In this document: positions 6,929-9,981 of the stretch, in pieces
Position numbering within the stretch: position 1 is the stretch's first letter
Layout of the letters: the number at the start of each line of letters is the position of its first letter
NCBI GenBank assembly: GCA_902598305.1
Contig: CACKBL010000001.1
Coordinates: 180,205 to 244,204, forward strand
Length of the DNA stretch: 64,000 bases
Direction of reading: 5' to 3'
From: an uncultured Bacteroidota bacterium
GTDB taxonomy: Bacteria > Bacteroidota > Bacteroidia > Flavobacteriales > Flavobacteriaceae
The notes under the pieces: generated by a model
The model's input: the letters and a program-made list of their open reading frames with translations, nothing else
What the model was told of the DNA's origin: nothing
The model's database searches: none
Made by a program: the position numbers and the translations under genes

Positions 6929-8468
6929 ATTAAAAAGTCTTAAGAAAATATCCAAAAAAAAAATTTGGGATTTAATCATTATTGGAGGAGGCTCATCGGG
7001 TTTGGGAATTGCTGTAGATTCTGCAAGTCGAGGTTATAAAACATTACTAATAGAAAAACATGATTTTTCGAAGGGGACCTCTTCTAGAAGCACCAAACTA
7101 GTTCACGGTGGTGTAAGATATCTTCAAAACGGAGATATCTCACTTGTTGTAGAAGCCTTAAGAGAAAGGGGGATTATGAGAAAAAATGCACCTCACCTAG
7201 TAAGAGATTTAAGTTTTGTTATCCCCTCTTATGATTGGTGGAATAGTCCTTTTTATGGGATTGGCCTAAAAATCTATGATATGATGTCTGGAAAACTTGG
7301 TTTAGGTCCTTCCACTTTACTAAGTAGGGACGAGATAATCAAATTAATTCCAAATGTTAAAAAAAATGGTTTAAAAGGAGGTGTGATTTATAATGACGGT
7401 CAATTTGATGATGCCAGAATGGCTATTAGTTTAGCACAAACTGCAGAAAATCATGGGGCAACTTTGATAAATTATTTTGGAGTCGAAGATTTAATAAAAG
7501 AGAATGAAATGATTGCTGGAGTCGTTGCGAGAGATTCCATTAGAAATAAAACCTACAAAATAATGGCCAAAGGAGTTATAAATGCAACTGGGGTTTTTTC
7601 TGATTCGATAACAAATTTAGACATCAAAAAAAGAAAAAAAACAATAGTTCCTAGTCAAGGTGTCCATATTGTATTAGACAAATCTTTTTTGGCTGGTAAC
7701 CATGCGATCATGGTCCCACACACAACAGACGGTAGAGTCCTTTTCGCAGTTCCATGGAATAATTATGTCATTGTTGGAACTACAGATACTCAAATTGAAA
7801 AGAGTAATATAGAACCCATACCACTTGATGAAGAAATTAAGTTTATTTTAAAAAATGCTGGATCATATATGAAAAGTGCACCAACTATTAAAGATATAAA
7901 AAGTGTTTTCGCAGGTCTAAGACCCTTAGCAGCACCAGAAAACAATGAAAAGGCTACTAAAGAAATATCTAGACATCATAAAGTTACGGTAAGTACATCT
8001 GGTCTTATTAGTATACTTGGAGGAAAGTGGACCACATATAGGAAGATGGCTGAAGACACAGTCAACACCGCTCGATCGGTAGCTGGTCTTCAAGAAAGAG
8101 AATGTATTACTCATAATCTTACCATTCATGGTTATGATTATTCATCCAATTGGGAAAACCCAATACACTTTTATGGAACAGATATAGAAAAAATTGAAAA
8201 CTTGTGTAATGAAGGTAATATCTCGATTAGTGAAAAGTTTTTTATTTCAAAAAACCAGATAATATGGTCAATTCGAAATGAAATGGCAATGACTCTTGAA
8301 GATGTTATGGCTAGAAGAACAAGATCCTTATTTCTAGATGCTAGAGAGAGTCTGAAGATTTCCCCAAAAGTATTAGAAATTATGGCTAAAGAAATGAAAA
8401 AAAATATAGATTGGATTAAAAATGAAAGCGCTAACTTTGAAAAAATAGCAAGAAATTATATAGTATGA
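6921..8468 (+). CDS. glpD: Aerobic glycerol-3-phosphate dehydrogenase, FAD-dependent
   Basis: Oxidises glycerol 3-phosphate to dihydroxyacetone phosphate and passes electrons to the quinone pool at the inner membrane. The dinucleotide-binding motif IIGGGSSGLGIAVDSASRG lies at about residues 21-39, followed by the GTSSRSTKLVHGGVRYL signature typical of GlpD. The SILGGKWTTYRKMAED region and the C-terminal helical domain (from about 390) complete the 515-residue protein, normal for the family. It overlaps glpK upstream (8 bases) and glpF downstream (4 bases). Confidence 0.95.
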   Translation: MDRLKSLKKISKKKIWDLIIIGGGSSGLGIAVDSASRGYKTLLIEKHDFSKGTSSRSTKLVHGGVRYLQNGDISLVVEALRERGIMRKNAPHLVRDLSFVIPSYDWWNSPFYGIGLKIYDMMSGKLGLGPSTLLSRDEIIKLIPNVKKNGLKGGVIYNDGQFDDARMAISLAQTAENHGATLINYFGVEDLIKENEMIAGVVARDSIRNKTYKIMAKGVINATGVFSDSITNLDIKKRKKTIVPSQGVHIVLDKSFLAGNHAIMVPHTTDGRVLFAVPWNNYVIVGTTDTQIEKSNIEPIPLDEEIKFILKNAGSYMKSAPTIKDIKSVFAGLRPLAAPENNEKATKEISRHHKVTVSTSGLISILGGKWTTYRKMAEDTVNTARSVAGLQERECITHNLTIHGYDYSSNWENPIHFYGTDIEKIENLCNEGNISISEKFFISKNQIIWSIRNEMAMTLEDVMARRTRSLFLDARESLKISPKVLEIMAKEMKKNIDWIKNESANFEKIARNYIV

Positions 8469-9208
8469 TGAACAATCCACTAATTGCTGAATTTATTGGT
8501 ACTGGAATTTTACTTCTTCTTGGATGTGGAATTGTGGCAAATGTGAATCTTAAGAAAACAAAAGCTGAGGGTCAATCACCTTGGGTTCTTATCACATCCG
8601 CATGGGGATTTTCAGTTTTTGTTGGTGCTTACGTTGCAGGTAAATATAGCGGTGCCCATTTAAACCCCGCTGTTACAATAGGACTTGCAACAGCAGGAAA
8701 ATTTACTTGGAAAATGGTTTTGCCATACATAATATCTCAACTTTCAGGAGCTATGTTTGGATCCTGGATTGTTTATTTAGTTTATATTGATCATTACAGG
8801 CAAACCAAGGATGAAAAAATTGTCTTGAGTACATTTGCAACAGGTCCAGCAATTAGAAATTTTAAAAATAATTTTTTTAGCGAGTTTGTTGGAACCTTTA
8901 TTTTGGTATTCTGTATTTTCTTTATTGTAAATCCAAATATTGCTTTTGAAAACATTGAGACTATAAACTTTGGAATAGGTTCATTGGAGTCATTACCAGT
9001 TGGAATTTTAGTTTGGGTTATAGGAATGGGGCTCGGCGGCACTACAGGCTATGCTATAAACCCAGCGAGAGATTTGGGTCCAAGGATTGTTTATCAATTA
9101 TTACCAAGAAAAGAAAAAGATGCAGACTGGTCATACAGTTGGATTCCAATCGCAGGTCCTATCGGTGGAGCTATTTTTGCTGGGTTATCCTACAGTTTTT
9201 TAATATAA
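8465..9208 (+). CDS. glpF: Glycerol uptake facilitator, aquaglyceroporin family
   Basis: A 247-residue six-helix MIP channel. Both pore motifs are visible: GAHLNPAVT (NPA at about 67-69) and GYAINPARDLGPR (NPA at about 199-201). The aspartate directly after the second NPAR is the hallmark of glycerol facilitators rather than water-only aquaporins, and the operon position after glpK-glpD supports glycerol as substrate. Two adjacent ATG codons are possible starts; the first makes an ATGA overlap with the glpD stop. It is the last gene of the operon and is convergent with the 6S-like RNA and zapA. Confidence 0.95.
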   Translation: MMNNPLIAEFIGTGILLLLGCGIVANVNLKKTKAEGQSPWVLITSAWGFSVFVGAYVAGKYSGAHLNPAVTIGLATAGKFTWKMVLPYIISQLSGAMFGSWIVYLVYIDHYRQTKDEKIVLSTFATGPAIRNFKNNFFSEFVGTFILVFCIFFIVNPNIAFENIETINFGIGSLESLPVGILVWVIGMGLGGTTGYAINPARDLGPRIVYQLLPRKEKDADWSYSWIPIAGPIGGAIFAGLSYSFLI

Positions 9209-9210
9209 AA

Positions 9211-9369
9211 ATCTGCGCTAACTTAGGTTTTGTATAAACTCCTATATAAACAGGATTTAGGCTAACCTCTGGATCAAGGGTCTTTTCAAGAAAGCATGCT
9301 TTTACCAAACGGACTCACCCTTTATTAAAAATTTCGTTGAGTTTATCAAAAAAATAAACTAACGCAGAT
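9211..9369 (-). ncRNA. ssrS: 6S RNA candidate (6S-Flavo-like), downstream of zapA
   Basis: The 172-base gap between glpF and zapA folds, on the minus strand, into one long nested rod. A closing stem joins ATCTGCG to CGCAGAT (9363-9369 with 9211-9217), extended by TTAG with CTAA. Inside it ATAAACTC pairs with GAGTTTAT (9339-9346 with 9234-9241), then AAGGGT with ACCCTT (9317-9322 with 9276-9281), and a small AAAGCATGCTTT hairpin caps it. The stretch between the second and third stems is a large asymmetric bubble with a side hairpin (CCTGTTTATATAGG). That is the 6S architecture. A T-run follows the closing stem on the minus strand only. In my recollection, 6S genes sit next to zapA in Bacteroidota and other bacteria. 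The exact ends are inferred. Confidence 0.65.
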
Positions 9370-9381
9370 AATTAACGAAAT

Positions 9382-9681
9382 TTACAAAAAATTAGTAATA
9401 TGCTCTTGAATCAATTCGTTAATATTTGAAAGCTTTTTTAAATTTTCTTGATTTTGAACATCATCAAAATTATTCTTTTGAATTAGTTTAGTTGCATACT
9501 GCAATGAACACATAGCTAAAACATCTTGCTTATCCCTAACTGCATAGCTTTTCTCAAATTGTCTTATCATTTGATCAATTTTTTTTACAGATAATCTTAT
9601 TGCTTCTTCTTGTTCTGGTCGAATTGTTAAAGGATAAATTCTATCAGCAATTTTAACTTTTATTTTGATTTTATTTTCCAT
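9382..9681 (-). CDS. zapA: Cell division protein ZapA
   Basis: A 99-residue cytoplasmic protein that binds FtsZ and bundles its filaments at the division site. The N-terminal beta-rich head (KIKVKIADRIYPLTIRPEQEE) followed by a long helix (IRLSVKKIDQMIRQFEKSYAV, then QYATKLIQ) matches the ZapA fold and length. It is preceded three bases upstream by a gene for a short coiled-coil protein and followed by the 6S-like RNA on the same strand, so the three may be co-transcribed. Confidence 0.9.
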   Translation of the reverse strand: MENKIKIKVKIADRIYPLTIRPEQEEAIRLSVKKIDQMIRQFEKSYAVRDKQDVLAMCSLQYATKLIQKNNFDDVQNQENLKKLSNINELIQEHITNFL

Positions 9682-9684
9682 GAT

Positions 9685-9981
9685 TTAAAAAGAAGATTCT
9701 AGTTGATTTATACAGGTATCGATTTCTTTTATTAATATGTTAATCTTTTCCTTTGTATCTCCATTATTTTCATCACTTCCTAATAAAGAATTTGCAACCG
9801 ACAAGCTTTTGTTTTTTTGCTTTAACAAGCTTATCTCTTCACTAAAAATTAAATTACTGGATTCCAATTCCTTCAATTTTGATTGTAAAGATTGAATTAA
9901 TAGATAATTATCTTTTAGTTTGTTTAAAAGTAGAACTACATTTTTTTCGATTTCTTTAACCTGTTCTTCGGAATGATTCAT
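9685..9981 (-). CDS. Small coiled-coil protein upstream of zapA
   Basis: A 98-residue hydrophilic protein that is heptad-like for most of its length (LLLNKLKDNYLLIQSLQSKLKELES and on). It lacks a signal peptide, cysteines and any recognisable catalytic motif. Its position 3 bases before zapA on the same strand suggests a role with ZapA in Z-ring organisation, comparable in layout to the ZapB/ZapA partnership. That is inference from context and coiled-coil character only; I do not see sequence identity to ZapB that would justify the name. Confidence 0.75.
   Translation of the reverse strand: MNHSEEQVKEIEKNVVLLLNKLKDNYLLIQSLQSKLKELESSNLIFSEEISLLKQKNKSLSVANSLLGSDENNGDTKEKINILIKEIDTCINQLESSF

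Follow-up and report, generated by a model that had tools for sequence, protein, structure and literature searches.

Between zapA and glpF of an uncultured bacterium of the family Flavobacteriaceae lies a short segment for which a sequence-only reading had proposed a structured RNA of the 6S design on the minus strand. The segment was analyzed within a window of 64,000 nt, that is, the whole stretch of DNA under study, in which zapA occupies positions 9382 to 9681 of the minus strand (Pfam PF05164, E value of 5.7 × 10−17) and glpF positions 8465 to 9208 of the plus strand (Pfam MIP, E value of 2.5 × 10−49). When the window was scanned against all of Rfam with cmscan, a single match above the gathering score was obtained, to RF01685 (6S-Flavo) at positions 9236 to 9342 of the minus strand (90.6 bits compared with a gathering cut-off of 85; E value of 3.3 × 10−14). 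The match was full length, not truncated, and spanned the entire 108-position model in sequence and structure, which upheld the proposed identity and the check with this family that had been suggested for it. The other family suggested as a check, RF00013 (6S/SsrS), gave no match at the gathering score in the window, and RF01693 (Bacteroidales-1) was not found there by the Rfam scan. The score of the window is modest within 6S-Flavo, with relatives reaching 114 bits; the genome carries one copy, and RF01685 matched 43 of 60 relatives and none of 14 control genomes. The stretch had been described as free of open reading frames, and indeed it is overlapped only by the tail of a TTG-start frame (9013 to 9237) inside glpF, which is not a credible ORF. 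On the minus strand, the region from 9205 to 9375 folded at −42.1 kcal/mol compared with a mean of −29.4 kcal/mol for shuffled sequences (z score of −3.85; none of 200 shuffles was as good), and the plus strand of the same region folded more weakly (z score of −2.43).

To analyze the structure, we aligned the full region of 43 relatives, including the flanks that are unpaired in the Rfam structure, and counted pairs in a six-helix structure. Standard pairs filled 94.1% of the cells compared with 80.1% in shuffles and at most 47.5% in slid versions of the structure, a control that favors our structure because it was derived from the same alignment; the evidence from compensatory changes does not hinge on this derivation alone. 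Changes on both sides were found in 27 of 36 pairs, a count reached by none of 500 shuffles, and double changes occurred in 233 cells compared with 64 in shuffles, so the positions expected to pair do covary among relatives. The closing stem P1 (9359 to 9369 paired with 9211 to 9221, extendable to 9356 and 9224) was paired in 98.5% of the cells and showed double changes in 10 of its 11 covarying pairs, and it contains, at 9363 to 9369 and 9211 to 9217, the AUCUGCG/CGCAGAU stem given in the sequence-only reading. Compensatory changes were observed even within the genus, between the closing stem of one congener (locus L030) and that of the window. Stem P2, formed by 9339 to 9346 (AUAAACUC) and the covarying 3′ arm at 9234 to 9241 (GAGUUUAU), was paired in 98.2% of the cells.

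Between P2 and the apical stem, the conserved structure leaves a central bubble of 17 nt per strand unpaired (9322 to 9338 on the 5′ side and 9242 to 9258 on the 3′ side), and the motif ACUCAAC at the edge of the 5′ strand with P2 is almost invariant in the alignment. The bubble had been described as large and asymmetric with a side hairpin; covariation does not bear out the asymmetry, as the two strands are of about equal length (17/17 nt), while a side hairpin is possible in the 3′ strand at 9241 to 9254. The apical domain (9259 to 9321) comprises helices 3 to 6, with covariation in helices 3, 4, and 6 and weak support for helix 5 (65% paired), and the minimum free energy fold of the single sequence departs from the family structure in this part. 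The run of T residues reported after the fold is present and terminator-like, but it counts only five bases (9207 to 9211), reaching into the glpF stop codon, and in relatives the T-runs after P1 are mostly 6 to 9 long. Taken together, the RNA displays the general 6S architecture of a long hairpin with a closing stem, a central bubble, and an apical stem, and from the RF01685 core, P1, and the U-run we predict a primary transcript of approximately 160 nt spanning 9207 to 9372 on the minus strand.

The RNA thus belongs to an already known family; it agrees with RF01685 (Weinberg et al., 2010; PMC2864571) in sequence and structure, but the Rfam model begins and ends inside P2 and omits P1, the stem that covaries strongly here, and the neighborhood of the gene in the window, which lacks rny, is the less ordinary part. 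RF01693, described as “6S-Bacteroidales RNA suggested” and modeled across both ends, detects the same RNA in some relatives (L037 to L040), although it stays below its cut-off throughout the order. The overall architecture is like that of 6S/SsrS (RF00013), and zapA adjoins the gene in both; however, the gene that often follows 6S in gammaproteobacteria is ygfA/fau (PMC7641849), not rny.

The linkage to zapA had been noted from the sequence by analogy with ssrS, and it proved to be general. In 43 of 43 whole-genome loci in the order, zapA is the immediate upstream neighbor of 6S and has the same orientation. Of 80 named Flavobacteriaceae loci in which 6S was located with a covariance model built from our own alignment (R1), among them Flavobacterium hibernum, Aquimarina, and Gillisia, all 80 have 6S directly after zapA; such linkage is typical of 6S RNA, rather than defining. 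The same linkage of zapA and ssrS is documented in beta- and gammaproteobacteria (PMC7641849). It has been lost in one family (f22), in which 6S persists elsewhere in the genome. On the other side, the gene after 6S is rny, encoding RNase Y, in 79 of the 80 named loci and in every locus of the first set that does not belong to the genus of the window. Across the phylum, RF01693 was a poor probe, with matches in only 3 of 148 genomes, and R1 recovered 6S in just 20 of 148, because the deep 6S RNAs are too diverged; since few of the deep loci reach a model cut-off, the presence of 6S was judged there mainly by spacer length and recognizable motifs. Nevertheless, in one deep branch of Bacteroidota (L105), the RNA in the slot between zapA and rny reaches the RF00013 cut-off (47.1 compared with 46.4 bits), and in another (L097) it approaches it (38.3 bits). 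The occurrence of canonical 6S RNA in the same slot links 6S-Flavo by position to classical SsrS within the phylum.

Several other explanations of the segment were weighed. The window is A+T rich and long hairpins arise by chance, yet the notion of a merely foldable spacer is refuted by the covariation and hardly deserves consideration given the folding z score, the E value of the RF01685 match, and the compensatory changes inside the genus. It is also very improbable that the segment is no more than the zapA 3′-UTR or terminator, perhaps one that zapA has in common with the convergent glpF, and has no role in trans. Such a reading would account for a gene that begins just past the stop codon of zapA and whose end, beside glpF, consists of a stem and a U-run, but terminators need neither a conserved 108-position core with a bubble and apical helices, matched far above chance, nor covariation throughout, and 6S survives away from zapA in family f22. 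Slightly less remote, though still improbable, is a different polymerase-binding RNA that resembles 6S, as the actinobacterial Ms1 does, and that would bind the core polymerase rather than the sigma holoenzyme. Structure alone cannot separate the two, as Ms1 is structurally related to 6S yet binds the core (PMC9130861); against it stand the positional continuity with canonical RF00013 6S RNA in the same phylum and the 6S and product RNAs reported in Bacteroides thetaiotaomicron (PMC7366714). Collectively, we consider it highly probable (roughly 93%) that positions 9211 to 9369 of the minus strand constitute a 6S RNA gene, the ssrS equivalent of the 6S-Flavo type, which in this genus forms a stand-alone unit after zapA.

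The conserved structure of this 6S RNA is a long hairpin whose central bubble imitates an open promoter; by analogy with published work on homologues, the RNA would be expected to sequester the holoenzyme of RNA polymerase and the primary sigma factor as growth slows. Its release would come about when the polymerase copies a short product RNA, with the 5′ bubble strand as the presumed template judging from known 6S RNAs. Weinberg et al. counted 6S-Flavo among the RNAs whose function matches that of a validated class (PMC2864571), 6S RNA was detected in Flavobacterium psychrophilum (PMC9723704), and 6S was detected together with pRNAs in B. thetaiotaomicron (PMC7366714).

In the genus of the window, the surroundings of the gene have changed. 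Neither Pfam PF12072 nor a full-length protein search, which scores 770 to 870 bits in two relatives, revealed RNase Y in any of its seven genomes (G000 to G006), and with the genomes 65 to 100% complete, a joint miss in all seven is unlikely. RNase E/G is retained in six of the seven, and nearly every other relative searched has RNase Y. The place of rny after 6S is taken in the window by the convergent glpF, and the 6S gene fills nearly all of the space between the ends of zapA (9382, minus strand) and glpF (9208, plus strand), so that its U-run extends into the glpF stop codon. The two genes are convergent and abutting (8465 to 9372), and the 3′ ends of both transcripts may therefore overlap. 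In the sole named locus that lacks rny, from a Red Sea Flavobacteriaceae metagenome-assembled genome (L230), 6S likewise faces convergent glpF and glpD; the locus probably represents a neighboring lineage that shares the same rny-loss event.

Loci with the rny order carry a further element. The motif GTTCTTTAAAATA is conserved between zapA and 6S in loci L002 to L026, L031 to L034, and L193 to L272, located at the stop codon of zapA or shortly behind it, some 20 nt ahead of P1. In the rRNA leaders of the same genomes, GTTCATTAACATA or GTTCTTTGAAAAT follows the rRNA promoter, and the counterpart motif in the deep branches is GTTCTTTGAAAAA or GTTCTTTGACA. We read the GTTCTTTAAAATA-type motif as a boxA-like element, boxA being the binding site of NusB and S10 in rRNA antitermination (PMC7819879). 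An alternative role as a promoter element was rejected, since the same motif in the rRNA leaders lies downstream of the promoter. With a matrix built from the rRNA leaders only, most Flavobacteriaceae spacers scored well above their own shuffles; the scan began at the zapA stop codon, so motifs overlapping it were scored too low (L036, L042, and L043). At the boxA place, GTTCTT or GTTCAT was found in 79 of 79 named loci with rny and not in the one without it, counts that do not represent independent events because the loci are related, the loss in the lineage of the window being one event.

The matrix scan of the spacers found no boxA-like motif in the five loci of the window's genus. The motif was likewise absent from zapA-rny spacers without 6S (families f22, f18, f20, and f21), from the relocated 6S genes of f22 (L084 to L086), and, in f24, f33, and one f41 genome, from loci where 6S follows zapA but rny is missing. 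Arrays that possess boxA usually have a T-run of at least 6 after P1. We rejected a general rule that boxA occurs whenever 6S precedes rny: families f28, f36, f25, and f5 are mostly without it, although one f28 locus and one f36 locus do score by the matrix, and the motif of f29 is no more than a variant. In f46, f42, f12, and f2, individual members also have 6S before rny without a recognizable boxA, and three Flavobacteriaceae loci (L019, L020, and L035) have degenerate forms only. The T-run of boxA-less loci is mostly short in f28, f36, and f46 and not short in f25, f5, f12, and f2.

The start of transcription may differ as well. A search for a conserved sigma-A promoter in the 25 nt preceding P1 was negative in relatives: none of 56 rny-order loci matched TAnnTTTG at 5 or more of its 6 positions. 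The genus of the window has a TAnnTTTG-like box, TAAATTTC or TAATTTTC, 7 nt before P1; in the window itself, TAAATTTC (9377 to 9384, minus strand) matches 5 of 6 positions and is a weak candidate for a −7 box, lying in A+T-rich sequence and overlapping the stop codon of zapA. Boxes with at least 5 of 6 matches close to P1 were also found in L230, in L086, and in three of four f24 loci, and a perfect box, TATATTTG, lies 3 nt before the closing stem in L085 of family f22. Such boxes in rny-less or relocated lineages fit a switch in which transcription reading through from zapA gave way to a promoter of the 6S gene itself, a fit that is weak for this genus.

From these patterns we tentatively propose, as possible rather than probable, that zapA, boxA, 6S, and rny form one transcription unit in much of Bacteroidota. 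Antitermination of the NusB/S10 type at boxA may carry the polymerase past the terminator-like closing stem and U-run of 6S into rny and so couple 6S output to RNase Y; loss of rny or relocation of 6S would then entail loss of boxA, and several such lineages (this genus, L230, f22, and f24) have a sigma-A-like −7 box near the closing stem in its place. In the genus of the window, the gene now stands alone after zapA, having lost both the RNase Y gene that normally follows it and the boxA-like element that precedes it in rny-order relatives. The proposal has exceptions, and the antitermination idea is weakened by family f33, in which a same-strand gene, read as ymdB from its sequence, directly follows 6S without boxA. 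A literature search that covered few subscription papers returned nothing relevant on boxA in connection with 6S RNA or on 6S RNA together with RNase Y in Bacteroidota. To the published family we add the covarying closing stem, the positional link to RF00013 in the phylum, and the boxA/rny hypothesis, without claiming novelty for them. The alignment gives a fuller 6S-Flavo model that includes the closing stem and ties the family to SsrS by position. If true, the boxA pattern would offer a testable explanation for the lasting association of 6S, zapA, and an RNA-decay gene throughout the phylum and would represent rRNA-style antitermination used outside ribosomal operons.

Directly upstream of zapA, the window also contains a 98-amino-acid frame (9685 to 9981) without a Pfam match; its product is rich in charged residues, probably forms a coiled coil, and is possibly a ZapB-like partner.
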